NCBI RefSeq assembly: GCF_028713855.1
Contig: NZ_JAQTNN010000014.1
Span: 1 to 64,000, forward strand
Direction of reading: 5' to 3'
Source of the DNA: Sulfuricurvum sp.
Lineage (GTDB): Bacteria > Campylobacterota > Campylobacteria > Campylobacterales > Sulfurimonadaceae
DNA: 64,000 nt
A program made the translations under genes and the position numbers. The number at the start of each line of letters is the position of its first letter. Position 1 is the first letter of the stretch. This document shows positions 3,123 to 35,831 of the stretch, one piece after another. Under the pieces are notes generated by a model, which worked only from the letters and a program-made list of their open reading frames with translations, was not told the origin of the DNA and made no database searches.

Positions 3123-3126
3123 TATT

Positions 3127-3255: not shown

Positions 3256-3272
3256 ATTTAAAGAGGCACTAA

Positions 3273-18499: not shown

Positions 18500-18503
18500 A
18501 AAC

Positions 18504-18536: not shown

Positions 18537-18565
18537 GCCATCATCAAAACGTAAAGGATTACACG

Positions 18566-18649: not shown

Positions 18650-18673
18650 GAAATACATATATAAAGGATATCC

Positions 18674-18847
18674 ATGTGTATTGCACTCATGTTAATAGCG
18701 CTGATCAGTATCATCATCGGATTCTATCGCATTGTCACTAGACCATCAGCAACGCTGGAAGTACGTTCTTTTGCTATGACATGGGTTTATTCGATGATAT
18801 GGCCGATTATCGTCGTGATAATCGCATTATCGATATGTCTGAGATAA
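18674..18847 (+). CDS. 57-residue two-helix membrane protein
   Basis: ATG 18674 has the RBS AAAGGATATCC. Two hydrophobic helices are clear: IALMLIALISIIIGFY at the N-terminus and MIWPIIVVIIALSICL at the C-terminus, joined by a short loop with Arg residues. It ends 4 bp before the next gene. The RBS, hydrophobic pattern and tight spacing make it a credible gene of unknown function. Confidence 0.6.
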   Translation: MCIALMLIALISIIIGFYRIVTRPSATLEVRSFAMTWVYSMIWPIIVVIIALSICLR

Positions 18848-18851
18848 CGAC

Positions 18852-19550
18852 ATGAAATACACATTGGATGATATGTTCGAATCCCAAAATAAGTTCTGGT
18901 CATTGGAATATCAGGATTTTTATCGCAAAACTTTCGAAGAAACGGTTAGGTTATATCCCCATGATACACAACGGGTGGCTATCCTGCAAAATCGAGCCAG
19001 AAAGATTTTGGATAAATCGCCTCATTACCATTTTTTGAAAAACCATCTTTTTGATTTTCCTGCAATCAATGCCTATGGCTTTGAGCATTTCGGATGGTTG
19101 GATGAGAAGATAACCGGATTAACGGATCATTCCCCTTTAGAACTGATATATCTATACTGGTTTGTGACCGTCTGTATCGAAGTGGGATATGGGGACGATA
19201 AATATGAGTTTGAAAATGACTTGCTCAATGCTATAGGTCTGATCGATGAGTTTAAAGCAGGCGTTTTACTCGATGATATTGCTAAAAGACTCCGAAGAGA
19301 GCTGATGCTGTGGCTTGCCGCATATCGAATTATCTGTGATTCTAAATATAAACTGGCGGCTTCTATCGATGTCGAATTTTGGTATTGTGAACCGGAAAAA
19401 CACGATCCTGTAAATGAATGGTTTTTCTACTATCTGCCTGTTAATCTCGATCTTGGCGGTGGAAGCGATTGGCCATCATGGGAGGTGCTGATGAAAGCCC
19501 GTGAAAAAATCCTCATCTTTTCCGAAATTGCAAAAATAGAGGTCAAATAA
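18852..19550 (+). CDS. Unknown 232-aa soluble protein
   Basis: The product is acidic, rich in Trp, Tyr and Phe, and probably helical, with a hydrophobic patch (LELIYLYWFVTVCIEVGYG) that is too polar around it for a clear membrane segment. I recognise no family. Its TAA overlaps the next ATG by one base (TAATG), so the two products are translationally coupled and probably made in equal amounts. Expression from the palindrome promoter at 18504 links it to the WYL regulon. Confidence 0.65.
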   Translation: MKYTLDDMFESQNKFWSLEYQDFYRKTFEETVRLYPHDTQRVAILQNRARKILDKSPHYHFLKNHLFDFPAINAYGFEHFGWLDEKITGLTDHSPLELIYLYWFVTVCIEVGYGDDKYEFENDLLNAIGLIDEFKAGVLLDDIAKRLRRELMLWLAAYRIICDSKYKLAASIDVEFWYCEPEKHDPVNEWFFYYLPVNLDLGGGSDWPSWEVLMKAREKILIFSEIAKIEVK

Positions 19551-20029
19551 TGCCATTAATCGCGTTGTATATTTTGAGTGCAGTGATTTTGCTAATAAGT
19601 GATATTGATGGCATTCGTACAGATCTATTTAGCGGAGAATTGTCCGTTTGGGTATTTTTTCTGATACTGGTTCCTATCGTATCTTTTGCCATGATTTTAG
19701 CTCTTATGTCCATTGTTCTTCTCATCACAATGTTATGGATGATATTTGAAGCACCCCTGCGGTGGCTCTTCGTAGAGTTGTATATTTTGAGTATGCGAAT
19801 ATGGTATTACGGGCGATTAATTTTTATGTCACGTCAGCGCAGACGCATCGAATATGAGAAAACCCTTCCTGCACTGATCGAGCTTAAACGATTGCGCAAC
19901 CGCTTGAAAGCATCGATGCGTGAACCGACTCCAGCTCCTATCGAAACCGATGTGCAGAAAAAAGCAAAAAACGACTTATGGGTGGTAGTGGCAATTTTGG
20001 TTGCATGGGGTTTGCTCAGTGGGGGATGA
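19550..20029 (+). CDS. Unknown multi-pass membrane protein (159 aa)
   Basis: Hydrophobic stretches lie at about residues 2-18, 33-66 (long enough for two passes) and 141-157. Between the second block and the last lies a basic, probably cytoplasmic region (RQRRRIEYEKTLPALIELKRLRNRLKASMRE). No family is recognised. As the last gene of the 18566-20029 operon it could be a membrane effector or anchor for the preceding soluble protein; that is inference from coupling only. Confidence 0.65.
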   Translation: MPLIALYILSAVILLISDIDGIRTDLFSGELSVWVFFLILVPIVSFAMILALMSIVLLITMLWMIFEAPLRWLFVELYILSMRIWYYGRLIFMSRQRRRIEYEKTLPALIELKRLRNRLKASMREPTPAPIETDVQKKAKNDLWVVVAILVAWGLLSGG

Positions 20030-20161
20030 ATAACTTGATGAAAATGAACATCGATTCTCTTGTGTGAATCGACGCGATTGAGTGGGTTAAGTCCTTCTCT
20101 AATGAAATCAAGGTAAAATCAACTTTATTTTTTCTTTACTTAAATTAATAGGATTTAACAT

Positions 20162-21709
20162 ATGCCTTCTCTCGACTGGATCGGTAAAGCTTCCATACTC
20201 AATCATCACAATGAAATCCCCTACCGACTCGTCGAATGCAATGAAGTTGTTGGTGATTTGAATGCAGGGAACCTCATAGTTAAAGGGGATAACCTTCATG
20301 CATTAAAGGCTCTTCTGCCTTATTACAAGGGCAAAGTTAAACTGATTTATATTGATCCTCCCTATAACACAGGAAATGAAGGATGGGTCTATAATGATGC
20401 TGTAAATAGTCCCGAGATAAAAGAGTGGCTTGGACGAGCTGTTGGGCAAGAAGCTGAAGATCTTTGTCGTCATGATAAATGGCTGAATATGATTTATCCT
20501 CGTCTAAAATTATTGAAAGAATTTTTATCTGAGGATGGCTCCATATGGATTAGTATTGATGATAATGAAGTTCATCATCTTAGAACTCTTATGGACGAAA
20601 TCTTTGGTGTAAAAAGATTTATTGCATGCAATGTATGGCAAAAGCGTTACTCACGTGAAAACCGTGAGGCGATTGGAGATGTTCATGAATATATTGTTGT
20701 TTATGCTATGAATCCAACATTATTCAAACAAAAACGAAACCGTATTCCATTTGATGAAAAACAAGCTAAGGTATATAAAAATCTCAATAATGATCCAAAA
20801 GGACGATGGCGTGGTATTCCGATGACAGCTCAAGCTGGACATGCCACGGCTGAACAGTTTTATGAAATAATTTCACCTGCGGGAAAGGTTTTTCGACCTT
20901 CTGAAGGCAGATGCTGGTCATTATCCAAAGCAACATATGAAAAATTTCTATCTGAAGGAAAAATATATTTTGGTAAAGATGGAAAATCTCAGCCAAATGT
21001 AATTAGATATCTTTCAGAAGTACAAGGTGTTGTTCCTTGGACGTGGTGGCCACATGAAGAAGTTGGACATACTGATGAAGCTTCAAAGGAACTATTATCT
21101 ATTTTTGCAGGGACTTCTGGTTTTAATACAACCCCCAAACCAACCAGATTAATTCGTCGTATCCTCCAAATCGCAAGTAACCCCGGAGATATTATTATGG
21201 ATAGTTTTGCGGGGAGTGGTACTACAGCTCATGCCATATTGGCTCAAAACAATGAAGACAACGGTCAACGCAAATTTGTTTTGGTAGAGATGGAAGATTA
21301 TGCTCGTGATATTACGGCAGAACGAGTAAAAAGAGTCATGCAAGGGTATGGGTCTACTCTAGGCATAGGAGGAGGATTCCGTTACTGTGAACTTGGAGAA
21401 TCTATCAAAGATGAAAATGGAGCGTTAAATCCTGAAGTTTCTGCCGAGGTATTGGCCAAACATCTCTTTTTCAGCGAATACGGCGTACCTCTCGAAACCA
21501 AACCAACTTTGCCTTACATTGGTTCATTTAACGAAAGCGGGCTCTATCTTTTCTTCGATACGTTTGAGCGTAAAAAACTTGCCAAACTCCTCAAAGATTC
21601 AAATGAATCTCGAATCGTATATGCTGCATCTTGCACCATCGATCCTCAAAAACTCAAAGATGCAGGAATTACTTTTCGCCAACTCCCTTTTGAAATCAAG
21701 GATCGATAA
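20162..21709 (+). CDS. mod: Type III restriction-modification methyltransferase (Mod)
   Basis: This 515-aa N6-adenine methyltransferase of the beta class carries the catalytic motif DPPY at 65-68 (IDPPYNTGN) before the AdoMet-binding motif FAGSGTT at 349-355. The segment between, with SIDDNEVHHLRTLMDEIFG after the catalytic core, is typical of Mod subunits and holds the target recognition region. ATG 20162 lies behind AATAGGA. The TAA is immediately followed by the res ATG. It recognises the site for both subunits and protects the host strand. No simple-sequence tract that would make it phase variable is visible. Confidence 0.92.
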   Translation: MPSLDWIGKASILNHHNEIPYRLVECNEVVGDLNAGNLIVKGDNLHALKALLPYYKGKVKLIYIDPPYNTGNEGWVYNDAVNSPEIKEWLGRAVGQEAEDLCRHDKWLNMIYPRLKLLKEFLSEDGSIWISIDDNEVHHLRTLMDEIFGVKRFIACNVWQKRYSRENREAIGDVHEYIVVYAMNPTLFKQKRNRIPFDEKQAKVYKNLNNDPKGRWRGIPMTAQAGHATAEQFYEIISPAGKVFRPSEGRCWSLSKATYEKFLSEGKIYFGKDGKSQPNVIRYLSEVQGVVPWTWWPHEEVGHTDEASKELLSIFAGTSGFNTTPKPTRLIRRILQIASNPGDIIMDSFAGSGTTAHAILAQNNEDNGQRKFVLVEMEDYARDITAERVKRVMQGYGSTLGIGGGFRYCELGESIKDENGALNPEVSAEVLAKHLFFSEYGVPLETKPTLPYIGSFNESGLYLFFDTFERKKLAKLLKDSNESRIVYAASCTIDPQKLKDAGITFRQLPFEIKDR

Positions 21710-24232
21710 ATGACGCTTAAAACCTATCAACAAAACGCTCTCGATGCATTGCAACGTTATTTTGTCGAGTTTCGAAGTGATGAGAACCCAAAAGCGTCAT
21801 TGGAACGGACTCAAGAAGCGTTAGGGCTCAGCAAAACCGCCTACACTCTTGTCAGCTCTGAAGCATGGGATTATCTTCGCCCTTATCTTTGTGTTCGTGT
21901 TCCTACCGGTGGTGGAAAAACACTTATCGCTGCACACAGTGTTTCGTTGGCAATGCGTGAGTTATTACGAAGTGATAGTGCTGTAGTCTTTTGGTTGGCT
22001 CCTACCAAAGCGATCGTGGATCAAACATTACGTGAACTTCGTAATCACAATAGTGCAGAGCGACAAGCTATTAATGCTGCAACATCCAAAAGCGTTAAGA
22101 TACTTTCAATTGATGAGGCATACTCGAACGCATTTGATTTGGTCAGTGATTTTGTTGTCATTGTCGCAACCTTTGCAACGTTTCGTGTCGATAAAGAAGA
22201 GGGGCGTCGTTTCTTTGGTTTAAACGGTCAATATGTCCATCTCAAACATGCTTTAGGTGATAAACTGAGCTTGCGTGACGTTTTAGCAAAAGCACATCCT
22301 ATTATCATAGCCGACGAAGCACACAGTGCTCGAAACGATTTAGCTATATCTCGACTACTGGAAATAGAACCATCGTGTATACTCGAATACACGGCAACTC
22401 CACAAATGCAAACGCGTGGTGAAAAAGTTGCTAGCAATATCCTAATCAGCGTTTCTGCTTCTGAACTCAAAGCCGAAAATATGATCAAACTTCCTTTGGA
22501 AGTTCAAGTGATCGATAAGTGGGAAATTGTCGTCAAAGCGGCTATTGAGAAACGGCAAGAGCTCGAAGACCTTAGTGCCGTCGAACTCTCAACAACCGGT
22601 CAGTACATTCGTCCGTTAATCCTCTTCAAGGCTGAGCCGGAAGGGAAGAATGATTCTGTTACCGTCGATGTCTTGGAAGCGTTTTTAAAAGAGAATTTTG
22701 CAATACCGGCTGAACAGATAGCTGTACATACCGGAAAGAGAAAAGATCTCGATGGTATCGATATCATGAGTCAACGCTGCCCGATTCGTTATGTTATTAC
22801 TGTTGCAGCACTAAAAGAGGGATGGAATGCCCCTTATGCATCCGTATTCTGCTCTGTTGCTAATATCGCAGGCGGTACAGCAGTAGAACAATTTTTGGGT
22901 CGCGTATTGCGGATGCCGTATGCTAAACCAAAATCTCAACCAGCATTGGCAAAATCCTATGCGATTGTTACTTCACTGCGAACATCTGAAGTCATTAAAG
23001 CGCTCAAAGATAATTTGATAGAGTGCGGGTTTGAAGAACAAGAAGCGGAAAAAGTCGTCATTCTTCGACCGTCATTGCCAGAAGTACAAGCTCCTGAAAC
23101 ATTACCTTTGATCGAAACAACTGAAGCCGATGATTATTTAGAACGTTGTTTTGCTCCAATCCAAAGCAATTTTAATCCTAATGATATTTCAGTTGAAAAG
23201 AAAATCGAAGTTATTGCATCGGCTCGTAAAGAGGGTGGAGAGTCATTGGCAAAAGCTGTCGAGCAAAGGGTTATGCAAGAGAGTGAAGCCCGTTTTGCTC
23301 AATTTTTCGAGGTACCTACACTTGCTGTAAAAGAACAGGGTGAATTGTGGGATTTTGATAGTGAAATTTTGATTGAAAGATCAATGCTAAGCGAAGCAGA
23401 AATGATCCGTTTGGCTGAGTTTGATGAGAAAGTTTTCAGTGTCCATGCGCACGGTATGAAACTGGAAGTTGATATTGACGGTAAAAAGCTGGTTACACAA
23501 ACGCTTGGAAGCATTAGAGATGATTTGCTTAGTCTCAGCGGACAGGCTGCAACACCTGATGAAAGAGCATTGACGAATGCTGTTTTAAATAAGTTGGATC
23601 GCCGTAATCTGACAATGATTGATCAAGCCAAACTGGTCTTTTTTGTTGCCCATGCGGTTCACTATTGTATTCATACTCGCAACATGGATCCAGTCGCTAT
23701 ACGTGCGAATCTATACGATTTCGCAGATACCGTCAAGCATATGCTCGAAAGCGGATTGGGGCAAGCACGACAACATGCTTTTCAAGAATTGCTTGAAGGG
23801 GATGAACTTGCTATCGGACATGCATTTAGATTTGACAGTGATCGTTACCCTTGTAAGCCGGATAAGAACAGTTTGAATTTTAAAAAGCATTTTTACAAAA
23901 AAGTGCACGAAATGAACAATGAAGAACTTGAGTGTGCGTTATTTATCGATTCTCTTGATGAAGTAGAGATGTGGGTTCGTAATATAGAGATGCAGCCGCA
24001 ACTTGCGTTTTGGTTACAAACGGCTACCGATCGCTTTTATCCGGATTTTATTGCAAAACTCAAAGATGGGCGGATATTTGCTATCGAATACAAAGGGGAA
24101 CATATTATGGAAAGTTCCGATTCGATTGAAAAAAGACGCGTAGGGGACGTATGGGCTAAGGTGACGGGGAATCTATTTGCGATGGTAGGAAGAAGTGATT
24201 TTAAAAACAAAATAACTGATTCTATACTCTAA
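21710..24232 (+). CDS. res: Type III restriction enzyme helicase-nuclease (Res)
   Basis: The 840-aa protein is an SF2 ATP-dependent translocase: Walker A PTGGGKT at 65-71, DEAH at 202-205, LEYTATPQ as motif III, EQFLGRVLRMP as motif VI. The C-terminal nuclease is intact: FYPDFIAKLKDGRIFAIEYK from 776 gives the PD-(D/E)xK triad Asp779, Glu793 and Lys795. It should cut unmodified DNA when two head-to-head sites are present, as known for type III enzymes. It begins directly after the mod stop. Nothing suggests inactivation. Confidence 0.92.
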   Translation: MTLKTYQQNALDALQRYFVEFRSDENPKASLERTQEALGLSKTAYTLVSSEAWDYLRPYLCVRVPTGGGKTLIAAHSVSLAMRELLRSDSAVVFWLAPTKAIVDQTLRELRNHNSAERQAINAATSKSVKILSIDEAYSNAFDLVSDFVVIVATFATFRVDKEEGRRFFGLNGQYVHLKHALGDKLSLRDVLAKAHPIIIADEAHSARNDLAISRLLEIEPSCILEYTATPQMQTRGEKVASNILISVSASELKAENMIKLPLEVQVIDKWEIVVKAAIEKRQELEDLSAVELSTTGQYIRPLILFKAEPEGKNDSVTVDVLEAFLKENFAIPAEQIAVHTGKRKDLDGIDIMSQRCPIRYVITVAALKEGWNAPYASVFCSVANIAGGTAVEQFLGRVLRMPYAKPKSQPALAKSYAIVTSLRTSEVIKALKDNLIECGFEEQEAEKVVILRPSLPEVQAPETLPLIETTEADDYLERCFAPIQSNFNPNDISVEKKIEVIASARKEGGESLAKAVEQRVMQESEARFAQFFEVPTLAVKEQGELWDFDSEILIERSMLSEAEMIRLAEFDEKVFSVHAHGMKLEVDIDGKKLVTQTLGSIRDDLLSLSGQAATPDERALTNAVLNKLDRRNLTMIDQAKLVFFVAHAVHYCIHTRNMDPVAIRANLYDFADTVKHMLESGLGQARQHAFQELLEGDELAIGHAFRFDSDRYPCKPDKNSLNFKKHFYKKVHEMNNEELECALFIDSLDEVEMWVRNIEMQPQLAFWLQTATDRFYPDFIAKLKDGRIFAIEYKGEHIMESSDSIEKRRVGDVWAKVTGNLFAMVGRSDFKNKITDSIL

Positions 24233-24245
24233 GTGATTTGAAATA

Positions 24246-24278
24246 GGACACGACGTTGTCTCATATCTGTGGTAAAAA
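24246..24278 (+). promoter_or_regulatory. GGACA-N6-TGTCT operator with -10-like TAAAAA, ahead of Wadjet
   Basis: GGACACGACGTTGTCT at 24246-24261 is followed after 11 bp by TAAAAA (24273-24278), the same geometry as at 14721 and 18504, and 36 bp before the jetA ATG. It suggests Wadjet is under the same regulator. Confidence 0.6.
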
Positions 24279-24313
24279 TATTCATTTTAAATAATTAAAG
24301 GGATGCATTGTAA

Positions 24314-25516
24314 ATGCGAGCTAAAAACGTCGGCGAATTACTGAAAATATTGCACTCAAACTCTGCCCTCTTGAGTGCAATATTCGATAGCAACGGTCGG
24401 CAGATGAATATCAACAGTGCCATTGGAATGTCCAATAGTGATACGATATCTTTTTTAGAAGATTACGGCATCATCGAAATTTTTAACAATGAAGTTATCC
24501 TCGATGATCAAATCATCCATATGCTCGAAGCGCATTTGATAGACGGGTACGATGAAAATCTCTATGATTACGTCGAAATCTTCAAAAAAATAGATACTTC
24601 AATTTCAAAATACTACAACACCTCCGAAAACGGAGGGGATCCGGCTCGACATCTCCGTGATATCCAAAGAGAATTACAGCGGATGCCAAGAAATCTGTTG
24701 GATACGTTACGTGGTATTCAACGGCATGTAGAGTTTACGTATCGATCTGCTTCCAGTGCACAAGAAAAGCTTCAAGAACTTACTTCCTACAATGAATCTC
24801 TTCTGCGATTTGAATCAAAACTCAGATTTATTCGAGACGAACTGTCTCGATTTAGAGGCTTTTTTACGCATGTGGGTGACACGGCTATTTTGCTTCGCCG
24901 AATGCGTCTGAGAACTTATATATTAGATGTTTCCAATACGCTCATTCAATTAAACAGCAGTGTTGTCGAGTATATACGCAAAACCAATGAAAATATCCGT
25001 TTTTACAAACATCTAGTCGAGCTTAAAGAGTTGAGAGACCGTAGGGAAATTATTGATAAGACCAATCTCTATGAACTGATTTACGAGTCTGAAAAAGAAC
25101 CACTTTTAAATGGCTATTCAACCGTAGAGAGACCAAACTATACTATCAAACTGCATCCTGATTACTCCTATGAAGATGAGTTTGAACAAAAAGTTCTTTC
25201 ACGGGGTTCAGTGAGCCAATCCATAGGAAAAATTGAAGCTACCAATGTCCCCATAGACGATTCTTTGTTCAAAGATGAGACCATCGAGGTTGTCAGTTAT
25301 GCAGTTCTTTTGGATGGATATGTAATGTCGGATAGCCAGCAGAACCTACTGGAATACATTAAAACGTCTTATCCTGATATTAACGATGAAAACCTTCTTG
25401 AAGTTTATTTGTCTGCAGCTGTTTTTGGAGAACGCTATCTCGAATTTAGTGAAGCAGAAATGGAAATCATTTCAACACACATGTGTATTCCTGCACATTT
25501 AAAATCAATACACTGA
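24314..25516 (+). CDS. jetA: Wadjet subunit JetA (MukF-like kleisin)
   Basis: This 400-aa protein is the first gene of a jetABCD operon. I identify it mainly by position: it precedes a JetB-size MukE-like gene, a Walker-A SMC-type ATPase and a TOPRIM gene, as in Wadjet/MksBEF-G systems. In the sequence, an N-terminal winged-helix-like region (about 1-80) is followed by a helical middle (RHLRDIQRELQRMPRNLLDTL to LRRMRLRTYILDVS) and an acidic tail, as expected for a kleisin bridging SMC heads. JetA does not match the DUF3375 type from memory, so a type II or III Wadjet is likely. Confidence 0.8.
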   Translation: MRAKNVGELLKILHSNSALLSAIFDSNGRQMNINSAIGMSNSDTISFLEDYGIIEIFNNEVILDDQIIHMLEAHLIDGYDENLYDYVEIFKKIDTSISKYYNTSENGGDPARHLRDIQRELQRMPRNLLDTLRGIQRHVEFTYRSASSAQEKLQELTSYNESLLRFESKLRFIRDELSRFRGFFTHVGDTAILLRRMRLRTYILDVSNTLIQLNSSVVEYIRKTNENIRFYKHLVELKELRDRREIIDKTNLYELIYESEKEPLLNGYSTVERPNYTIKLHPDYSYEDEFEQKVLSRGSVSQSIGKIEATNVPIDDSLFKDETIEVVSYAVLLDGYVMSDSQQNLLEYIKTSYPDINDENLLEVYLSAAVFGERYLEFSEAEMEIISTHMCIPAHLKSIH

Positions 25517-25525
25517 GGATACAAA

Positions 25526-26110
25526 ATGGCACTTATTGATACCGCCAAGCTTCCGATTGAAATCAAAGAAATTTTTGACACGTTACGCAGAGGGAATTTT
25601 ATCGTTGATAATCATCCCGATTCCCATCAAAAAAGACTCTATGGCGTTTGCGATTCACACCATTCACTCCTCTTTTCTTATTTTGATAAGCTGGGTTATG
25701 AATTGACAGGAGGGGAGGGTTACTTCCTTTTTACCGTCTCGGATATGCCTGAGAGCGCGAAAGAAAATAGGATTGATCGGGTTCTCGAACTTCTGGATTT
25801 TATGGAACTTTTTCACGGAGTATTTCCCTCTTTTGGTATAGGGTGGCGTGGCTCTCCTGCAGAATTAGCCACAGCGCTCAAAAGTGATGCTATCCGTTAT
25901 GAGAAACTGGAAAATGCTCGTATTTCTAGGGGGAAATCATTACAGGAGCTTTGCGAGAAAGTGTTTAGTGAGATGGAGCGCTTTGGAATCATAGTTCCCA
26001 TTAGTGACAATCAAAATAATTACATGGTGACATCAGCTTATAACTATGCCAAAGAGTTTTTTGAATCAGTGAAACGAATCAATACCCGTGATGATGAGGC
26101 GATACAATGA
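25526..26110 (+). CDS. jetB: Wadjet subunit JetB (MukE-like)
   Basis: This 194-aa DUF4194-like winged-helix protein has the RBS GAGGATACAAA before ATG 25526. It contains the typical order of a compact WH domain (FDTLRRGNFIV, then FSYFDKLGYELTGGEGYFLFT) and a second helical lobe ending in an ELCEKVFSEMERFGII segment. MukE/JetB binds kleisin and DNA inside the SMC ring. Its stop overlaps the jetC ATG by four bases (ATGA). Confidence 0.82.
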   Translation: MALIDTAKLPIEIKEIFDTLRRGNFIVDNHPDSHQKRLYGVCDSHHSLLFSYFDKLGYELTGGEGYFLFTVSDMPESAKENRIDRVLELLDFMELFHGVFPSFGIGWRGSPAELATALKSDAIRYEKLENARISRGKSLQELCEKVFSEMERFGIIVPISDNQNNYMVTSAYNYAKEFFESVKRINTRDDEAIQ

Positions 26111-29100
26111 AGGGGCTTAAATCGATTACATTCTATAACACCGGTCGCTTTGCCTATGGGCATATCGATGTGGATGAAAATTCTCTTCTGACCGGGACAA
26201 ACGGCGTCGGTAAAACAACGACTAGTCAAGCAATGTTGTTTTTTTATGGAACGACGCGAAGTGATCAGCTTGGCATTACAAGACGTGAGGGGAAAACGTC
26301 ATGGTCAAAATACATGTACCCTCATTCAAACTCCTATATTTTTTACCGCTACACTGGGCTACATGGTGACATACTATTGATGACGTATCAGCATGGAAAC
26401 GGTGTTGCTTGGCGATTTATGCTAGTTGAGGGAAATATTGATCTCAATGCCATTGTATTGGAAAACCAAGTTGTTAAAAATCCTAAAGAGGTCATAAAAT
26501 ATTTTCTGATTGCAGGCTATAAGCCAAGCACACAAATTACCGATCCTGGGGTGTACCGTAAAATACTTTATGGAAGTATTGATACACGTAAGGAAAAAGA
26601 TCTTGGCGTTTTTCGAGAGTATTCGTTAATGGAAACGGCAGGGGAATATCGTCATATACCTGACATGCAATCGAGTATCTTTGTCGATTCAAGTGTAAAA
26701 GCAGGTGCAATCGAAAAAGCGATTACCAGTGGTTATGGGGCATCGTCTACACTGTCATTGCCACAAATACGTAGTCAGCTATATAGTGCGATTGAGCAAT
26801 TTCGTGCTGTGAGAAATTACGAACAGCAAAAAAAACTGATTGAAAAAATGGGTGAAGAGGTTCATAATTACACCCAGCATACGGATGCGATTGAGCGGGT
26901 ATTGCGACAGATGCAATCAAACAAAAAAGCGTTAATTCTCAAAAAAGAAGAGGCTGGTTTAACAAAAGAGAAGCTTGACATAGAATATGGGGTAATCGAA
27001 GGCCGACAACGTGAAGAGCAACGTGAACTTGATGCGCAAGTAGATGCTGTAAAAGCGGATTTTGTGACTGCAAAGCTTGAATTTGAGGAGGCACAAAGGC
27101 TTCAAATCTATTATTCTGATAAAGATATGGTGAGTGCTTCTGCTGAAGTCGATGCTATCCCTACCCTTGAAAAAGAGTTGAATCAGAAGAAAACGGAATA
27201 TGACAATAGTTTAGGGGGAGCAAAAAGTTTAGCCCAAACGTATGATGATATGCTCCTTAGTGAACAAGAAGGTCTTGCTAAGCAAATACGTCTTCATGAG
27301 CAAGGATATGAAAACGTTAAAAAGGAAAATGACTCGCGTAAAGAGCTTTTAGAACAACAGCACGACCTTGATCTTGAACGGATCGAAAAATATAACGAAG
27401 AAAAAAATAAACAATTGGTACTCGATTTGGCGAAAGCTGAGACGATGTATATGGAAGCCTATAAGAATCATACGAATATAGTATCTGCAAATCCGTATAA
27501 CGTCCCTGTGATGCAGCTCAAAGAATCCATTCTAGTCTTGAAAACAACGATTTCCAAAACCAATGATGATAGAGAACTGCTAAGTCGTCAAATGGAGTCT
27601 AATGCCAATCATAGGGATGCCTTAGAACAACGAATTGAAACGATCAGCTCTGATACGACCCGTAGGATTGAAATTGAAAAAAAACCTTTCCTAGAGACTA
27701 TTAAAACGCTAGAAGATTTACTAGAAGCCAATGAAAAGACTTTATTGCATCTCATACGTACCCAATTACCGTCGCGTGAGGGGATTCTGACCTCTATACT
27801 AAAAGATGAAATACTGCTAAATACAGAATTGTTCCCAAGGGTAGGGGAGGTGCATCCATCTATTTACGGCCTGATACTCGATGAATCGGTATTACCGCAA
27901 TCGAATTTGTCTCGTGAGACAATTCTTGAAAAAATCAGGGCAGAGAAAAAAGCTATCTTAGTCATAGTGAAAAAAATTACGGATGAGTCGGATGAAATTC
28001 TTGCATCAATCAACAAAGAAAAAAACGATCTTCAGAAAGAATATTTCTCTCTCAAATCCAAAAAAGATGGTCTGGATACAGACTTGCTCAGAGACAATGC
28101 AAAATTAGTCTTATTAGAAGAAGAGTACGAAGCTCTCACGAAATCATCTCAAATACAATGGGATAACGCTAAAGAGAGTTTAAAAAATGCTTATGATGCG
28201 GCTAAAGCATTGGTTGAACAATTGAAACTTCAAAATGATGCAGCGGGAAGTCTTTTACGAGAAGAGATCAATCAATGTAAAATCATATACAAAGATACGT
28301 TAACCCAGCTTCGGGAAGAGCTTGTTCGGGCAAAAGAGTCTCTTGAATCGATAATTGAGGCAGAAAAAAATAAAAGTGCCCAAAGTCGAATGGATATAGA
28401 GCAGCGACGCAAAAATGCTCTCCTTGAAGGGGGATATTCTGTAGAGTTGATTGAAACCTTGCGAAATGAGTTTGAAGCTTCGCAAAAACGGCTTGAAACA
28501 GCTAAATCCCATAGAAGTGCAGTTGAGCGATGGCGGGAAGAGCTTAAAAAAATTGAACGCCTATCTTCATTCAAAGAGAGAGTAGATACCCTCACGCTTT
28601 CAGTTCAGAATGTTGAAAACAAACGCTCGAAACGTATGGAAGAGATGCGTAGAGAAGAGAAAGCAATTCATGAAAAAATAAATGCTTTAGCCCTCACTAT
28701 CGATAGCTGCGATATGTACATCAAAGAGGCTGATATTGTATGGAATAAAAATGACTTTCATTTTTTTACCCAAAAGATTGATGATGAGGGCGAAGCCACA
28801 TGTGTTCCTATGCCAAGTGAAGAATCTACAAGTAACCTTGGCAATACAGCGTCCATTGAACATCAGCGCCGCTCAAGTGCCGGCAAGGAAGTTGGATTAC
28901 TCTTTGGGAGATTTTTATCCTATTTTAAAGGTTCCGATCAATTTATCTTTTTTCAATACAGTATTGCTTCGAGTGAAGCTACTATTCGCTCAGCCAAGAA
29001 TCTTATAGAGTTCGTCGAAGGTGGAGGTCTTGATGAGATCAAAGAGACGGTTGCATCCGAAATTCGCCTTATTCAGGGAAATATATCTGAGCAATATGAA

Positions 29101-29769
29101 AGTTTCAGCAGTGAGACGCGTACGATAGAAACGCTCGTTAATCGAATTGACAAAGGGCTCAAACAAGCAATTGTGAATATTCCGGTTATAAATGATATCG
29201 GGATTCGTATGGTCCGTAATGAACATCGAATCTTCAAAGATCTAGAAGCGATTTCCGCTGTTGAAATTCCTTATGGGAAAAGTGACTCATTATTTGGGGA
29301 TTTAGAACACAGCAATAGGGCATCATCTGAGATTCTCGGACATTTTGATACGCTATTAAATCATATTAATGATGAACGTCGAGAAGAGCTGAGCATTGCA
29401 GACACGTTTGATGTACAGTTTCGTGTTGTTGAAAATGACAATGTATTCGATTGGGCAAGCTCACGTTCGGGCATAGGTTCTACCGGTACCTCGATTATCA
29501 TCAAAACGTTAACCTATATTTCCCTTTTGCAATCCGTAATGGAAGGAACGCAGAAAGGTGAACGAATTCCAGTTCATGTCGTATTGGATGAGATTGGGAT
29601 GCTTGATCAACAAAATATGCGTCAAATCATTAATTTTGCGAATGAAAACGGTGTTTATCTTCTCAATGCGGCACCGGATGTAAAAGTACCTGATCGATAC
29701 AAAAATATTTATCTGTATCGCATCGTGAATAATAAGTCTAAAATCTCTCGATTAGCAGTACACAAGTGA
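26107..29769 (+). CDS. jetC: Wadjet subunit JetC (MukB-like SMC ATPase)
   Basis: The 1220-aa SMC-like motor has Walker A GTNGVGKT at 30-37 and the C-terminal head with a signature-like SGIGSTGTS segment and Walker B VVLDEIG at 1158-1164 (Asp1161, Glu1162). Between the heads runs a long antiparallel coiled coil (about 260-900) with a hinge-like interruption near 590-640 (TSILKDEILLNTELFPRVGE and following). MukB-family SMCs extrude DNA loops; in Wadjet this recognises small circular DNA before cleavage. Full length and intact motifs suggest function. Confidence 0.92.
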   Translation: MKGLKSITFYNTGRFAYGHIDVDENSLLTGTNGVGKTTTSQAMLFFYGTTRSDQLGITRREGKTSWSKYMYPHSNSYIFYRYTGLHGDILLMTYQHGNGVAWRFMLVEGNIDLNAIVLENQVVKNPKEVIKYFLIAGYKPSTQITDPGVYRKILYGSIDTRKEKDLGVFREYSLMETAGEYRHIPDMQSSIFVDSSVKAGAIEKAITSGYGASSTLSLPQIRSQLYSAIEQFRAVRNYEQQKKLIEKMGEEVHNYTQHTDAIERVLRQMQSNKKALILKKEEAGLTKEKLDIEYGVIEGRQREEQRELDAQVDAVKADFVTAKLEFEEAQRLQIYYSDKDMVSASAEVDAIPTLEKELNQKKTEYDNSLGGAKSLAQTYDDMLLSEQEGLAKQIRLHEQGYENVKKENDSRKELLEQQHDLDLERIEKYNEEKNKQLVLDLAKAETMYMEAYKNHTNIVSANPYNVPVMQLKESILVLKTTISKTNDDRELLSRQMESNANHRDALEQRIETISSDTTRRIEIEKKPFLETIKTLEDLLEANEKTLLHLIRTQLPSREGILTSILKDEILLNTELFPRVGEVHPSIYGLILDESVLPQSNLSRETILEKIRAEKKAILVIVKKITDESDEILASINKEKNDLQKEYFSLKSKKDGLDTDLLRDNAKLVLLEEEYEALTKSSQIQWDNAKESLKNAYDAAKALVEQLKLQNDAAGSLLREEINQCKIIYKDTLTQLREELVRAKESLESIIEAEKNKSAQSRMDIEQRRKNALLEGGYSVELIETLRNEFEASQKRLETAKSHRSAVERWREELKKIERLSSFKERVDTLTLSVQNVENKRSKRMEEMRREEKAIHEKINALALTIDSCDMYIKEADIVWNKNDFHFFTQKIDDEGEATCVPMPSEESTSNLGNTASIEHQRRSSAGKEVGLLFGRFLSYFKGSDQFIFFQYSIASSEATIRSAKNLIEFVEGGGLDEIKETVASEIRLIQGNISEQYESFSSETRTIETLVNRIDKGLKQAIVNIPVINDIGIRMVRNEHRIFKDLEAISAVEIPYGKSDSLFGDLEHSNRASSEILGHFDTLLNHINDERREELSIADTFDVQFRVVENDNVFDWASSRSGIGSTGTSIIIKTLTYISLLQSVMEGTQKGERIPVHVVLDEIGMLDQQNMRQIINFANENGVYLLNAAPDVKVPDRYKNIYLYRIVNNKSKISRLAVHK

Positions 29770-30623
29770 AGCCGATAACACTTGGTGATGCCCGTTTGTT
29801 TCGGGATTTATTCGAAACACAAAGCAGCGTTTATAAAAGTGGGTTCAGCAGCAGTGGAAAAAAACTGCTTGAAGATTTAGAACGTTGTGGCGTGATACGC
29901 ATTCGACATGTAGCTGCAAGGTCATGGCAAGTTTTTCCTCTTTCATACGATGGGTTTTTGGCTCATATCAAAACCTACTACAATATTGATGATTTTGAAC
30001 GTTACATACAGGCATTGGAGCTAATATCACCCAGTAGGGAAGAGCTATCTGCCCTTGGGGTAAGTACAAAATTACGAAATATTGGTCCTAAAACCGGTAT
30101 CCACATTAATGCGCCATTTCCTTTAGAAGTGATAATTGGAGGACAAAAAGTGAACCTTAGCTTTCCTATAGGTACAGCTTTGTTTGTTCATGAAAACGTT
30201 GAAATCCAAATACCTGTTGATGTTGTGATTGTTGGAGTTGAGAATTTTACCAATATCACCAATGCATTTAGACAAAGTCATTTGTTTGAGCAATTTGGAA
30301 GAGTATTGTTTGTGGAACGTTGCGGCACATTACAAGGATTACTTGCCAGAGTCAGTAACCGTTACATCCATTATGGGGATATTGATCTCGCAGGGATACA
30401 TATTTATCAAGTACAGTATGCTCCGATAGTGGATGAACGAGGGTCTTTTTTTCTACCATGTTCTGTGGATGAATTATTTGAGAGATTTAAAGGGCTTCCT
30501 GAATTATTTGAACAACAAAAGCGTAAATACGCTGCTCTCAAAGGGATTGATGAATCAATGCAGATACTTATCGATGAGATCCGTACTCAGAAAAAGGGAA
30601 TTGAGCAAGAATCTTTTATTTAA
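29766..30623 (+). CDS. jetD: Wadjet nuclease JetD (TOPRIM)
   Basis: This 285-aa protein starts at GTG 29766, overlapping the jetC TGA by four bases. The C-terminal half is a TOPRIM-type nuclease: Glu159 in VIVGVENF and Asp205-x-Asp207 in HYGDIDLAGIHIY, the metal-binding acidic residues. The N-terminal half should be the arm that docks on the SMC complex. It is shorter than the JetD proteins I recall (about 350-400 aa), so part of the N-terminal region is reduced. JetD makes the cut in circular plasmid DNA. Confidence 0.88.
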   Translation: MKPITLGDARLFRDLFETQSSVYKSGFSSSGKKLLEDLERCGVIRIRHVAARSWQVFPLSYDGFLAHIKTYYNIDDFERYIQALELISPSREELSALGVSTKLRNIGPKTGIHINAPFPLEVIIGGQKVNLSFPIGTALFVHENVEIQIPVDVVIVGVENFTNITNAFRQSHLFEQFGRVLFVERCGTLQGLLARVSNRYIHYGDIDLAGIHIYQVQYAPIVDERGSFFLPCSVDELFERFKGLPELFEQQKRKYAALKGIDESMQILIDEIRTQKKGIEQESFI

Positions 30624-30646
30624 ACTTGATATATGCAAATATTAGG

Positions 30647-31720
30647 TCATTGCTTATGTTGTTTGATTGTATTATCTGAATTCAATTGTACAGCCCAGTC
30701 ATATGTTCCAGATCCTGCATTATAATTATGAATGACCCAACTTTTATGTGTACCTTCTTGATAATTTCTGCCAATCTCTAATGCTAAAGAAGATTGAACA
30801 GATAAAAATAAGTGAATACTACTGCAATTTTCTTTGCTAGAAAGTTGGTCAATGATTATTTTTAATTCTTCAGATATTCGCTGAAGATTGTCTTGGTTAT
30901 TAATTAGATTTCTACCAATATTCTTACTTGAGGTAATAATCAATGTATGGCCATGAATAGATGCAGGCAATTGATGTTCTTCTATTTGAGTAGTGAAACA
31001 GATAGCTAAACCTACTGCACCTTCCTTATTAGGATGTATCTCATTGATAGGATGGTAACTTAATCCAATGTTTTCATCTTCATCATCAAGTAAATGCCAC
31101 TTATTATTTGCATGTTTTTGATCAAAATAGACTATATTAGCGCTTATATTTCTAAAACGTGAACCATACGCTACCAATAATGGTACTCTCGCTCTACCTC
31201 CCAAAAAAACCTTTTTACAATCATGATGTAAAATAAAACGGTGATAAATATCTACCATTTGTTCAGCATTAAACATCTCTATAGATTTTTCAATATAATT
31301 TTGGCCTTCAGATACCCCAAGTTTAATGGGCTCTCTTGAATCAATTTTTTCTGATTCATACAAGATTTCATCAGGAAAATGCGCTGATTCGCCGAGCATT
31401 GAGACAATCATAACTTTTGCTGTTTTTCTAGCTTGGTTACGTACAGTTTTGATACCGTAGTAGATTAGTGAAGTACCAACTAACGTAAATATTATGGCCA
31501 TCCATAAAGAGATATCTGAAATATCTGCAACTGTAATTTCAAATTGATCAAACAAAACTAAAGGTTTGGCATTCTTGAAAACAATATCTATTTTCCAACC
31601 ACCGAGTAATACTGGAACCAGATACAAAATTCTTATCCCATAGTTAACAAGTGGATATGATTTTTTTCGTAATTCGATTAAGACACTGAGCAACCATTTA
31701 ATTTTAGGCCAAATTGGCAT
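30647..31720 (-). CDS. cap14: 2TM-SAVED CBASS effector (Cap14-like)
   Basis: The 357-aa product is the last gene of the CBASS operon. Two membrane helices are visible near residues 24-42 (VNYGIRILYLVPVLLGGW) and 70-90 (ISLWMAIIFTLVGTSLIYYG). From about 150 a SAVED domain follows, ending with the typical IHLFLSVQSSLALEIGRNYQ and the YDWAVQL strand. SAVED binds the cyclic oligonucleotide made by the CD-NTase; in 2TM-SAVED effectors binding is thought to trigger membrane disruption and cell death. It has the RBS GGAGAATACA and overlaps cap3 by 17 bp. Confidence 0.88.
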   Translation of the reverse strand: MPIWPKIKWLLSVLIELRKKSYPLVNYGIRILYLVPVLLGGWKIDIVFKNAKPLVLFDQFEITVADISDISLWMAIIFTLVGTSLIYYGIKTVRNQARKTAKVMIVSMLGESAHFPDEILYESEKIDSREPIKLGVSEGQNYIEKSIEMFNAEQMVDIYHRFILHHDCKKVFLGGRARVPLLVAYGSRFRNISANIVYFDQKHANNKWHLLDDEDENIGLSYHPINEIHPNKEGAVGLAICFTTQIEEHQLPASIHGHTLIITSSKNIGRNLINNQDNLQRISEELKIIIDQLSSKENCSSIHLFLSVQSSLALEIGRNYQEGTHKSWVIHNYNAGSGTYDWAVQLNSDNTIKQHKQ

Positions 31721-32204
31721 TGTATTCTCCTATTAACTCGATTTTATTAAAAACTGCTCTCTTAGTTCCCATCCAACAACGGATATGAGTCTGGCCAACT
31801 ATGAAATAAAATAGTCGATCACCTTCGTACATAGACTTATTCAAGGCGATATTCCAATCTCTTTTATCTACAGAAGAATAATTTGGAATTGGCTCCGCAT
31901 GTGTATGCCACAAACCTACATATGTTGATTTGCGTTGTGATTCTTGCCATATTTTTTGTACTAATCGATTGTGGTCGTCTGATCTATAATATTCATATCT
32001 TCCTTGTCTATCAGACGGCTGAGGCGGGGTATAATCATCGATTAATAGAGTCCCATTTGAATTCAAATGTTTCCCGATCAATACTCCACCCGATTCTGCC
32101 GCACTAGAATTTATTTGTCTATAGCTCAATAGGTGTTCAATCAACGATTTGGATATTCTAACCAAACCATATCCATGGACTTCTATTTCCCATTCATTTG
32201 TCAT
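31704..32204 (-). CDS. cap3: JAMM-type isopeptidase Cap3
   Basis: From ATG 32204 (166 aa; AAGG 7 bp upstream) the protein shows a complete JAB/Mov34 metalloprotease motif: Glu37 in ESGG, then His100-x-His102, Ser110 and Asp113 in HTHAEPIPNYSSVD, exactly the HxH-x7-S-x2-D pattern. An in-frame start 45 bases earlier exists but lies within cap2 and lacks a good RBS. Cap3 removes the conjugates that Cap2 makes on the CD-NTase, restraining the pathway. It overlaps cap2 by 11 bp. Confidence 0.9.
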   Translation of the reverse strand: MTNEWEIEVHGYGLVRISKSLIEHLLSYRQINSSAAESGGVLIGKHLNSNGTLLIDDYTPPQPSDRQGRYEYYRSDDHNRLVQKIWQESQRKSTYVGLWHTHAEPIPNYSSVDKRDWNIALNKSMYEGDRLFYFIVGQTHIRCWMGTKRAVFNKIELIGEYNANLA

Positions 32205-33927
32205 TGCAAACCTTGCATAGCTCTGCCCTCGATATTGCAAATTCATCAACTAAATTTATTGCGTCATAACGAGCAGTTGTTTTTAAACTTCCCGTACCTT
32301 TACCTTTCCAAGACGCTGCTTTAGATGTTAAATCTTGGTTTAGAAGCAATTGGACAGATTGGTTAGCAGCCAAAATAGCTGTTTGGGAAGAGTCCAAGTA
32401 AGAAAACGGAGTAAATACTCCAGCACAACCTGTCAAATTCTTTGATATTTTTTGGTCTGAATCCAGTAGATTTAATTTACAGATATTTGAATATCCATCT
32501 TCATATGTATATAGACAATTCAAACAGCATGTATCAAGATTTAAACGTACGGAATGCCCTCCATATCCAGCTGCTTCATTCCAGCAAAATATTGCATGTT
32601 TTACGTCCCTTCCCTTTAAGTCAATATTGAATTTTAAATTTAGTGAAGGTGAGCCAACCGCAATAATGACCAAATCTGAATTAACAATATATTCTTCATT
32701 CAAAACTTTCTCAAAAACTTTTTTAATTGCAGTAACTTTGACATATGGCAAATCTTTTTGCAAAGCGAATTGTAATGCTACGACCTTGCTATTATGTTTT
32801 ACTTTTGGAGTGCTAGTTTTTAATTTTTCAAGCTCATAATTTAAATAGCTTCCTCCTAATCTATGCCTATAAATATTGTCAACCTTTAAATCGTCATTAT
32901 CTATAAGTGTCAATTCTCCAATACCTGTTTTAGCAAGCATAAAAGCTATTTCACTTCCGACAGAGCCACATCCTACAATGGCCACTTTTTTGTTTGACAA
33001 AATATTTTTAGCCCCGCCTCTTTCGAGTAAATACTCTCTATGATTCCGTTGCATTGTATAAAATCTAAGTTCCCATTGATCTGAATATTCTGCACAAGGA
33101 TGAGGCCTATCATCTTTGTGTATATATTGCAATAACAGCTGGGTCCGTTCATTTGCCTGTCTAGGCATACTTAAGAGAATAAAAAATTCCTTTTTAGGGT
33201 TGGTTTTTTCTAAAAATTCATTTAGAGCACTCTTGTTTTCCGGGGAAATATTATCGAAAATGGAATAGATATATTTAGCTGTCAATTTTTCTGCATTTGA
33301 CGGTGGCAAAACAGGTGTATCAAGCGGTAAATGTATTATGTTTATAATCGTAGAAATGGCTTTTTTAACATTACTGAAATGTGTTGGATATTCATTACGT
33401 TGATTTAATAATAAAACAGGAAAATGGTAATGATGATTTTGTCGATAAAGATACCCAGATCTTATTGGTATGACAGAAAGTGTGATAATTTCGAATTTAT
33501 CAGTAGCTACATAAAAAGAATTAACGTCGCCAATCGCATCGTGTTGAAAATATCCTTCATATTCATCTGTTAATTCAACTTGATTGATTCTCACACTTGC
33601 ATGATCAAGAGTTTTAACAATTTCTTCTAAAAAATACTCGATAACTTTTGAAGGATTTGATGTATTAATGACTATACTATCGCTCTCTTCAACACATACA
33701 GTACACGCTCTATTCACATGAGCCAATATACCTACATCATCTTTATCTAAAAGTTTTGCGAAAGGAAGACGGTTGGGAAAGTCATATGAAAAATCAAGTG
33801 AAACATTCCAAATCTTTCTTCCTTTTAGTGAAAAATTCCATACTTTCTCACTTGCGCCCTTTTCGCATGAAATCAAACACTGAATAGAGATCTTTCGTAT
33901 TTCCTCTTCTAATTCTTCATGGCTCAC
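32194..33927 (-). CDS. cap2: E1-E2 fusion ligase Cap2
   Basis: This 577-aa protein starts at GTG 33927, overlapping the CD-NTase TGA (GTGA). The N-terminal E2-like domain (1-145) has a catalytic cysteine candidate at 75 or 78 (ACTVCVEE). A linker follows (about 150-290), then an E1-type adenylation domain with nucleotide loop VAIVGCGSVGSE (314-326), the acidic LIDNDDLKVDNIYRH motif and catalytic Cys501 in LTGCAGVF. C-terminal CxxC (CKVC) may help bind zinc. Cap2 attaches the CD-NTase C-terminus to a target, priming it for signalling. Confidence 0.92.
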   Translation of the reverse strand: MSHEELEEEIRKISIQCLISCEKGASEKVWNFSLKGRKIWNVSLDFSYDFPNRLPFAKLLDKDDVGILAHVNRACTVCVEESDSIVINTSNPSKVIEYFLEEIVKTLDHASVRINQVELTDEYEGYFQHDAIGDVNSFYVATDKFEIITLSVIPIRSGYLYRQNHHYHFPVLLLNQRNEYPTHFSNVKKAISTIINIIHLPLDTPVLPPSNAEKLTAKYIYSIFDNISPENKSALNEFLEKTNPKKEFFILLSMPRQANERTQLLLQYIHKDDRPHPCAEYSDQWELRFYTMQRNHREYLLERGGAKNILSNKKVAIVGCGSVGSEIAFMLAKTGIGELTLIDNDDLKVDNIYRHRLGGSYLNYELEKLKTSTPKVKHNSKVVALQFALQKDLPYVKVTAIKKVFEKVLNEEYIVNSDLVIIAVGSPSLNLKFNIDLKGRDVKHAIFCWNEAAGYGGHSVRLNLDTCCLNCLYTYEDGYSNICKLNLLDSDQKISKNLTGCAGVFTPFSYLDSSQTAILAANQSVQLLLNQDLTSKAASWKGKGTGSLKTTARYDAINLVDEFAISRAELCKVCNDK

Positions 33928-34928
33928 GCATTATTTCCAGAAGTTACATAGGGCATAACTCTGGCTTCTTTCACATCTTCTACCAGTGGAAATTCATCAC
34001 CGAAAACATTACGCAAAATTTTACTTGCCTTATGTGCCGATTCTTCCCGTTCAGCCTCTTCTAGAGCTTCCAAAAGAATATCTACTTTCTCATGGAATTT
34101 ATCTTTTTGTATCAAAGTCATTTTGTAATAAACATTTTTATAAGGTGCGACCGGTAGATCAACAACGATATTTTTCATCCATTTAGATAAGGCGTGATCA
34201 TATTCATCGCAAAACGAATCTTTAATATACTTCGCTACAGTTATGAGGGCATTTAAATCACTTTTTTTATCATAAAAATTAAAAGCTTTTCTTGTCTGAA
34301 TAGTCAACCCAATAGATGGCGGCGCACCATTTCCTCCGGAATTAAATTGCTTTTCTTTCCATTTTTTTAAAAATCTTACACAGCGTCTAAACTGAGCAGC
34401 CTTGTCTGGATCAGTTGAAACATCTGCAACCCATGAAGTGAGCTCTTCCGGTTCAGATTTATACCAAAGTTTTTCATCTGAAAATTCTTTCCCCCATGCA
34501 ATATGAATGTCACTATTGTTATCTGAATAAACCGCCAAATCAACATGATAATCTTCTGTTTTATATTCCACTGTAATACATGGCCGCTTGTATTTGACAG
34601 TCCGATTGCTCTTATTAAGCTTGTCTCTAACAAGTTTTTTTAAAGTGCCAGACTCATATTCCTCATTAGTAACGTTAAAGATAACACCAACATCAATATC
34701 ATAATCATCATGCTTGGGTCTGATACCTGTGTTCATTGCATATGAACCTTGATTTATTGATCTGAATGTTAGGCTTTTATCGGTACCGGGTATTTTTTCA
34801 TCCTTCAATGCATCTCTAAGTTCATCAATCAACAAATCTCTTTTATCTCGAAGATCTTTATTCTCATCATACTTTTTAAGTTTTATTTTTTCATGAAATG
34901 TATCAAACTCTTTTTGCATATTTGGCAT
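33924..34928 (-). CDS. CBASS CD-NTase (cGAS/DncV-like nucleotidyltransferase)
   Basis: The 334-aa first gene of the operon carries the nucleotidyltransferase motif Gly61-Ser62 (NQGSYAMNTGIRP) with Asp77-x-Asp79 (DYDIDVGV) and a third acid at Asp130 (YHVDLAVY), all intact. It should make a cyclic oligonucleotide when phage is sensed. The product is not deducible from sequence by eye. The C-terminal tail ends VTSGNNA, a small flexible tail suited to Cap2-mediated conjugation. ATG 34928 lies 10 bp behind GGAG. Confidence 0.9.
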   Translation of the reverse strand: MPNMQKEFDTFHEKIKLKKYDENKDLRDKRDLLIDELRDALKDEKIPGTDKSLTFRSINQGSYAMNTGIRPKHDDYDIDVGVIFNVTNEEYESGTLKKLVRDKLNKSNRTVKYKRPCITVEYKTEDYHVDLAVYSDNNSDIHIAWGKEFSDEKLWYKSEPEELTSWVADVSTDPDKAAQFRRCVRFLKKWKEKQFNSGGNGAPPSIGLTIQTRKAFNFYDKKSDLNALITVAKYIKDSFCDEYDHALSKWMKNIVVDLPVAPYKNVYYKMTLIQKDKFHEKVDILLEALEEAEREESAHKASKILRNVFGDEFPLVEDVKEARVMPYVTSGNNA

Positions 34929-34980
34929 TGTTTAGAATCTCCAATAAATTTAAACAATAATAACAAAAAAATGATACGTA

Positions 34981-35014
34981 TACAAATATAATGACTTTTT
35001 GCAATATATTTGTA
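34981..35014 (-). promoter_or_regulatory. 10-bp perfect inverted repeat in the CBASS promoter region
   Basis: TACAAATATA (34981-34990) and TATATTTGTA (35005-35014) are exact complements with a 14-bp spacer, 53 bp before the CD-NTase ATG. The AT-rich content fits both promoter elements and a repressor site. No GGACA palindrome is present here, so CBASS seems outside the WYL regulon. Confidence 0.45.
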
Positions 35015-35109
35015 TTGTAGACAAATGCTTTTTCATCAGCTTTTATACTTAAAGTACAGTATTGGAATAAGATTTTTATGGATAGTGTTTTATAGTGATA
35101 AGTGTCAAA

Positions 35110-35700
35110 TTATTTTATAACTGAACAGTCATTTAATTCACTAGACCTTTTAAGTGTATCAATCAACGTCGACCGTTTGACTTCAAATGTTCGACACACT
35201 GCCGCTTTGGACATCCCGTTATTTAAAGCTTCTAAAATAGCATCCATCTTTTCTTGAGCAATCGCTCGTGGCCGTCCACCGATACGTCCTCTTTTTCGCG
35301 CCGCTGCTAATCCAGCATTAACACGTTCCTGTATAAGCGAGCGCTCGAACTGTGCCAATGCTCCAAATACATGAAAGAGCAGTTCTCCTGACGGACTGGA
35401 AGTATCCATACCCTCAGTCAAAGATTTAAACCCGACACCTTTGGATTTTAGATGCGAAATGATTTCGATCAAGTGGGGCAGGGAGCGTCCTAAACGATCA
35501 AGTTTCCAAACGACCAGTACATCTCCCTCTTTAACATATTCTAATGCTTGAGCTAAACCAACTCGATCATCTTTAGAACCCGAAGCTTTATCTTCGAAAA
35601 TATTCCTTTCATCTACGTTGGCACTCATCAATGCATCACGTTGAAGATCAGTACTTTGTCGATCACCGTCAGTCGATACTCGCATATATCCTATTAGCAT
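35110..35700 (-). CDS. Serine recombinase/resolvase
   Basis: The product from ATG 35700 (196 aa) is a small serine recombinase. The catalytic Ser9 lies in IGYMRVSTD; KLDRLGRSL and the FHVFGALAQFERSLIQERVNAGLAAARKRGR-type E helix are conserved (here split), and a C-terminal HTH (MSKAAVCRTFEVKRSTLIDTL) binds the crossover site. It fits Tn3-type resolvases or invertases. No transposase accompanies it, so it may resolve plasmid multimers or be a relic of a transposon. An earlier in-frame ATG at 35715 lacks support. Confidence 0.9.
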   Translation of the reverse strand: MLIGYMRVSTDGDRQSTDLQRDALMSANVDERNIFEDKASGSKDDRVGLAQALEYVKEGDVLVVWKLDRLGRSLPHLIEIISHLKSKGVGFKSLTEGMDTSSPSGELLFHVFGALAQFERSLIQERVNAGLAAARKRGRIGGRPRAIAQEKMDAILEALNNGMSKAAVCRTFEVKRSTLIDTLKRSSELNDCSVIK

Positions 35701-35724
35701 GCCGGAAAACCTCAAATTTTAGTA

Positions 35725-35820
35725 TCCGACTATTATATCATTCCGACAGTGTTTTTTGTATGGAATATCACAGCTTTTTTGGCTTTAAAAACAGGGTAGG
35801 GCAGAGTGTACGAAAAACAC
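35725..35820. other. Candidate recombination (res) site upstream of the resolvase
   Basis: A near-perfect inverted repeat, GTGTTTTTTGTA (35749-35760) and TACGAAAAACAC (35809-35820), matches at 11 of 12 positions; two TCCGAC-type half-sites surround TATTATATCA at 35725-35747. Multiple half-sites next to a resolvase gene are the expected layout of a res site. The match to known res sequences is weak. Confidence 0.35.
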
Positions 35821-35831
35821 TAGATTGAGCT

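Follow-up and report, generated by a model that had tools for sequence, protein, structure and literature searches.

A probable Wadjet-type SMC nuclease operon, divergent from PADLOC types I to III, on a plasmid-like replicon of Sulfuricurvum

Does a four-gene operon carried by a plasmid-like replicon of Sulfuricurvum, a sulfur-oxidising bacterium, encode a machine that destroys plasmids and, if so, of what kind, and how would its own carrier be spared? The operon lies in a window of 64,000 nucleotides, by which we mean the whole stretch of contig C14 that was analysed. A first-pass annotation had described a complete JetABCD system here, and the gene calls confirm the span and the completeness of the operon: four intact genes occupy 24314-30623 on the + strand without interruption, with a gap of 9 bp between jetA and jetB and overlaps of 4 bp each between jetB and jetC and between jetC and jetD.

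24314-25516, + strand: jetA-like kleisin, 400 aa, called as an open reading frame, predicted fold MukF-like
25526-26110, + strand: jetB-like KITE subunit of the MksE family, 194 aa (PF21980, 1.5e-21)
26107-29769, + strand: jetC-like SMC ATPase, 1220 aa (PF12128, DUF3584/MukB-like, 1.2e-35)
29766-30623, + strand: jetD-like Toprim nuclease, 285 aa, GTG start, identified by predicted fold

All four components of Wadjet or MksBEFG in the broad sense, namely a kleisin, a KITE subunit, an SMC protein and a Toprim nuclease, are thus encoded. An Rfam scan of the window found no RNA family.

The AlphaFold2 model of JetD, built from an alignment of 36 sequences, has a pLDDT of 95.3. Residues 1-98 are predicted to form a generic winged helix, and residues 109-285 match TopoVI-A (Z 12.5), Corynebacterium glutamicum MksG (8b7f; Z 12.4) and Pseudomonas aeruginosa JetD (7til; Z 11.1). 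The acids E159, D205, D207 and E282 are invariant in 36 of 36 aligned sequences, as the catalytic acids of a Toprim domain would be. Alanine mutants of the Mg-binding MksG residues E236 and D279 were drastically impaired, with most nuclease activity gone, and E349 and E351 are proposed residues of the same protein (PMC10123090). By motif and spacing, rather than by residue-level superposition, JetD E159, D205 and D207 correspond to MksG E236 and D279, and JetD E280 and E282 to MksG E349 and E351. No tyrosine is invariant among the aligned relatives in the winged-helix part, which fits a nuclease and not a religating topoisomerase. The modelled residues 109-285 align to residues 209-368 of 7til, leaving JetD without the N-terminal arm of type I. 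Its length falls about 100 residues short of type I JetD, the catalytic residues are kept, and because the arm is missing its activation may differ from that of type I.

The other three proteins are consistent with an SMC machine. JetA is predicted to consist of an N-terminal winged helix, long helices forming a helical bundle, a disordered linker and a C-terminal winged helix (AlphaFold2 model, pLDDT 79). The best Foldseek matches of this model were MukF structures (9gm7, 4e-5; 7nz2, 3.7e-4), with a weaker match to Escherichia coli JetA (8as8_E, 4.9e-3). JetA matched no family in PADLOC, NCBIfam or Pfam at gathering level, and VIA-align did not distinguish it from other helical bundles. The jetB gene is the only place in the whole genome that matches PF21980. 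JetC has a Walker A motif (GTNGVGKTT, residues 30-38), a signature region (S1125/G1127) and a Walker B motif (DE, residues 1161-1162); the residues of all three are invariant across seven relatives, and JetC accordingly appears to be equipped as an SMC ATPase. Searches of PDB sequences with JetC or JetD, as single sequences or profiles, returned nothing informative.

Among 84,980 species genomes scanned, 251 JetD relatives were confirmed, from which 80 loci were kept. Together with one plasmid locus these make 81 loci, 66 of which have the ABCD order intact; incomplete loci are in many cases close to the end of a contig. Median sizes in the inspected loci are 398, 187, 1223 and 286 aa for JetA to JetD, and the recurrence of order and sizes places the arrangement far beyond chance. 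Pfam MksE, DUF3584 and DUF7281 each matched in all ten family members scanned. Hosts of the ABCD family are mainly Bacteroidota and Campylobacterota, and a sister operon in CBAD order is found on proteobacterial plasmids (Aromatoleum, Rhodoferax, Enterobacter, Acinetobacter). Within Campylobacterota the distribution is patchy, with JetC present in 11 of 397 genomes and absent from all nine other Sulfuricurvum genomes listed. No JetD relative was confirmed in viral contigs, and phage records yielded one marginal JetC match. Two further loci were noted in passing: a Campylobacterota locus (L182, 9564-12972) has a differently built operon with a 268-aa JetD-like and a shorter SMC-like protein, matched weakly by the family profiles, and L063, which is among the nearest jetABCD relatives sampled, has a KfrA-like coiled-coil gene, recognised by eye, immediately upstream at 2496-3407.

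The replicon had been called plasmid-like, large, and provided with an iteron origin and parAB, and each of these points holds, on a contig that is unclosed. Its replication and partition region comprises the following features.

227-814, no strand assigned: iteron-type origin region, with six exact copies of TTGTTACGTTTR, found in both orientations, as well as variants
888-3122, + strand: Rep_3-type replication initiator, 744 aa (PF01051 over cut-off)
3273-4151, + strand: ParA partition ATPase (NCBIfam ParA_partition, 1.8e-23), colinear with pSULKU01
4153-5115, + strand: ParB partition protein (TIGR00180, 6.9e-16)

The exact iterons occur nowhere else in the window. Rep is 94.1% identical to the Rep of pSULKU01, a circular plasmid of 118,585 bp with which the Rep-parAB block is colinear, and it was found in only eight of 41 Sulfuricurvum genomes. 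C14 measures 80,812 bp, so the replicon is at least 80.8 kb. Its left end has 127 exact bases identical to the start of contig C11, and about 125 bases at its right end are common to C11, C15 and C24. A further plasmid-like contig is C11 (101 kb), whose Rep shares 66% identity with the Rep of a Sulfurimonas plasmid. As candidates for small plasmids, C25 and C26, the smallest two contigs, were rejected, because the genes on them are chromosomal and the two contigs overlap; the assembly has no contigs under about 5 kb, and plasmids below that size would escape view. In locus L002 (15672-16812) a hipA-like gene is truncated at 339 aa, compared with 529 aa in pSULKU01, and breaks where an insertion-sequence-like terminal repeat common to four contigs begins.

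The operon is part of an exchangeable defence slot at 20034-35821 of the window, whose flank, cargo and border are as follows.

18496-20033, + strand: left flank, 93% identical in another Sulfuricurvum (contig G413:C70)
20162-24232, + strand: type III restriction-modification by PADLOC, with mod at 20162-21709 (MTase_III, 7e-176) and res at 21710-24232 (REase_III, 2e-110)
30647-34928, - strand: type II CBASS operon by PADLOC, with Cyclase (7e-110), Cap2 (E1-E2, 1e-202), Cap3 (JAB, 3e-66) and a 2TM-SAVED effector (4e-120)
35110-35715, - strand: small serine recombinase at the right border, about 83-87% identical in DNA to copies on other Sulfuricurvum replicons
35703-35821, no strand assigned: res-like site of about 120 bp, with 13-bp inverted arms at 35748 and 35809

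The res-like site is positioned upstream of the recombinase, and nearly all of ten copies stop aligning at one right-hand base, 35821. The element recurs on many Sulfuricurvum replicons, with or without an adjoining serine recombinase. In G413:C70 the same left flank and the res-like site (82%) enclose type I restriction and QatABCD, and in pSULKU01 the site begins 16 bp past qatD. From these alignments we infer that slot cargo is exchanged by recombination at the res-like site. Since the same slot holds type I restriction and Qat in another Sulfuricurvum, the operon can be read as defence cargo of an exchangeable slot on a large pSULKU01-type plasmid, and the exchange is the best sequence evidence for this reading. 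Two other observations concern the region to the left: a TROVE/Ro60-like protein, recognised by eye, stands beside a divergent WYL-type regulator (16958-18499 and 15512-16510), and another WYL-type regulator at 11101-12030 lies in a region that is 90% conserved left of the slot in G413 and has a related copy on pSULKU02.

We consider it probable, with good though not full confidence, that the four genes encode a Wadjet-type anti-plasmid SMC nuclease belonging to a divergent branch outside PADLOC types I-III. This reading rests on the operon anatomy, the conservation of ABCD, the matches of the JetD and JetA models and the intact motifs, as well as on the patchy distribution, the exchange against type I restriction and Qat, and the plasmid backbone; weak sequence similarity to the canonical types, the mostly housekeeping flanks of relatives elsewhere, the missing JetD arm and the unclosed contig count against it. 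In such a machine, JetC dimers with the KITE subunit JetB on the JetA linker would form a motor unit, and the N-terminal winged helix of JetA would pair two such units as in MukF. ATP-driven loop extrusion around a circle would bring the motor units into collision, and DNA would thereby gain access to a dimer of JetD, at whose Toprim site (E159, D205 and D207, with E282 as a candidate extra catalytic acid) both strands would be cut, by analogy with type I. The operon would presumably shield host and plasmid from small circular DNA, and the host plasmid itself would presumably be spared.

How a plasmid could carry such a system leads to the narrower proposal, compatible with the Wadjet-type reading and more specific than it, that the operon serves its plasmid as a weapon against rivals and that this large carrier is spared by size alone. 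As sequence evidence goes, a weapon against competing plasmids is plausible; for the combined proposal our confidence is tentative and clearly on the doubtful side. In its favour are a replicon of at least 80.8 kb with a relative of 118.6 kb, set beside a reported Wadjet size cut-off of about 50-100 kb (PMC10586767; PMC12287153), and the similarly large size (101 kb) of C11, the plasmid-like contig that shares the genome. Wadjet operons on plasmids have already been noted in published work (PMC10586767; PMC12287153). In PLSDB, 29 plasmids, a count that includes some partial matches, have the family or the sister operon; they range from 40 kb to 1.58 Mb with a median of about 341 kb, and three are under 100 kb. 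Plasmids carrying CBASS Cap2, taken as a control, are similarly large, however, so that the size of the carriers may only reflect cargo capacity, and we rejected the plasmid-size statistics as proof of escape by size. Also against sparing by size, the sister operon is present at full length on pACI-b25a, a circular plasmid of 40,249 bp, and a plasmid record of 22 kb has a type I JetC match; moreover, benefit to the host and benefit to the plasmid are inseparable by sequence. The earlier proposal of escape by size therefore lacks support in the form in which it was made, and we offer both the attack on rival plasmids and the sparing by size as hypotheses.

The first-pass annotation had also filed the operon as a known JetABCD system; the type of machine stands, and membership of PADLOC Wadjet types I-III does not. 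Against the type I models, JetA gave no match, JetB 0.013, JetC 0.0019 and JetD a partial JetD1 match of 1.6e-7 (its match to DUF7281, at 4.5e-5, was sub-threshold), which does not amount to type I. The type II models JetA2-D2 found nothing in the operon even at E 10, with the proviso that the phylum yielded no type II operon to serve as a control, and of the type III models only JetD3 matched, at 0.0027, which falls short of type III. None of the window Jet proteins matched LmuA or LmuB of Lamassu. Across ten family members JetA was recognised in 0/10, JetB at 3.5e-4 or worse, and JetC and JetD weakly. Could this nevertheless be an ordinary type I, II or III system that has drifted below the model thresholds? 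The best PADLOC matches of JetD are indeed to JetD1 models, but type I and III operons of the same phylum, used as positive controls, match their own models in each subunit examined, with best hits of 4e-45 to 0 (at one type I control locus, L179, JetC and JetD alone were tested, the two upstream genes being restriction-modification), and a type III control operon (L181) matches all four type III models. In a tree of JetC heads that covered types I and III, the family and its sisters stand apart from both types (100/98), a separation to be read with caution given the long branches. Together with the failure of PADLOC to recognise JetA in any of the ten family members, this makes the ordinary-type explanation improbable. 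Comparison of JetA and JetD with single type I proteins by hhalign was not significant, and is weak because one side is a single sequence. Judged from these searches, the operon is a divergent Wadjet-like branch outside PADLOC types I-III.

One alternative is an MksBEF-like condensin working in the organisation or segregation of the plasmid or the chromosome, in which JetD would be an auxiliary topology enzyme and not a plasmid killer. It would accommodate the MksE-family JetB, a JetA closer to MukF than to JetA, and the many relatives among housekeeping genes. Flanks of relatives elsewhere do consist mostly of housekeeping genes with no strong defence-island signal, and the strong defence context is accordingly confined to Sulfuricurvum. 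A condensin of this kind nevertheless seems to us unlikely, as a Toprim nuclease with conserved catalytic residues is always paired with the core, JetD has no invariant winged-helix tyrosine for a religating topoisomerase, the distribution is very patchy, and the operon is swapped against restriction and Qat in the defence slot; nor does the locus resemble MksBEF without a nuclease, jetD being present and overlapping jetC. Also unlikely is that the same machine serves mainly against phage DNA circularising on entry, which the anti-phage neighbours (CBASS and type III restriction) and the presence of Qat in the slot elsewhere might suggest, but studied Wadjet systems act on plasmids and do so independently of sequence (PMC10586767).

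A bolder form of the Wadjet-type reading deserves mention, to which we give a little less than an even chance. The branch would be a fourth Wadjet type, so far undescribed, distributed widely in Bacteroidota and Campylobacterota and marked by a compact JetD that lacks the arm. Rules of activation and self-sparing of its own would permit carriage on plasmids well below the reported size cut-off, as with the sister operon on its 40-kb circle, and in Sulfuricurvum it would be spread by resolvase-site recombination. A search of open-access papers found no description of a type IV Wadjet and no Wadjet paper mentioning DUF3584. Catalogues of plasmid defence would miss the branch, as the operon is unrecognised by PADLOC 2.0.0 and NCBIfam, and in the public plasmid annotations examined the family genes are labelled as ATP-binding or hypothetical proteins. 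The residence of an anti-plasmid system on plasmids, which in the sister group are as small as about 40 kb, makes self-sparing directly testable, and the slot in Sulfuricurvum offers a natural experiment, with one defence taking the place of another at a single site. The combination of an MksE/MukF-like core with a nuclease also bears on the kinship of the chromosome-organising MukBEF and MksBEF with the plasmid-cutting Wadjet systems.

Among known relatives of the replicon, pSULKU01 of Sulfuricurvum kujiense has a Rep 94% identical, colinear parAB and defence genes beside the same res-like site, but there they are Qat, and the plasmid has no JetC match. With Wadjet type I (E. coli GF4-3, P. 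aeruginosa PA14) the operon shares the assembly of kleisin, KITE subunit, SMC ATPase and TopoVI-A-like Toprim protein and the gene order of the type I operons examined. It differs in a JetA of about 400 aa, compared with 467-479 aa, and an arm-less JetD of 285 aa, compared with 381-387 aa with an N-terminal arm, and its JetA-C are either missed by the PADLOC type I models or score far below them. C. glutamicum MksBEFG, likewise a plasmid-defence operon, has in MksG the same Toprim fold (Z 12.4) and matching metal-binding acids, whereas the Sulfuricurvum JetD is short and arm-less, and the JetD3 model, which matches C. glutamicum, has no significant match to it. With MksBEF, which has no nuclease, and with MukBEF the operon shares an MksE-family KITE subunit, a MukF-like kleisin fold and a MukB-like SMC protein; unlike either, it has a nuclease gene attached through a 4-bp overlap.
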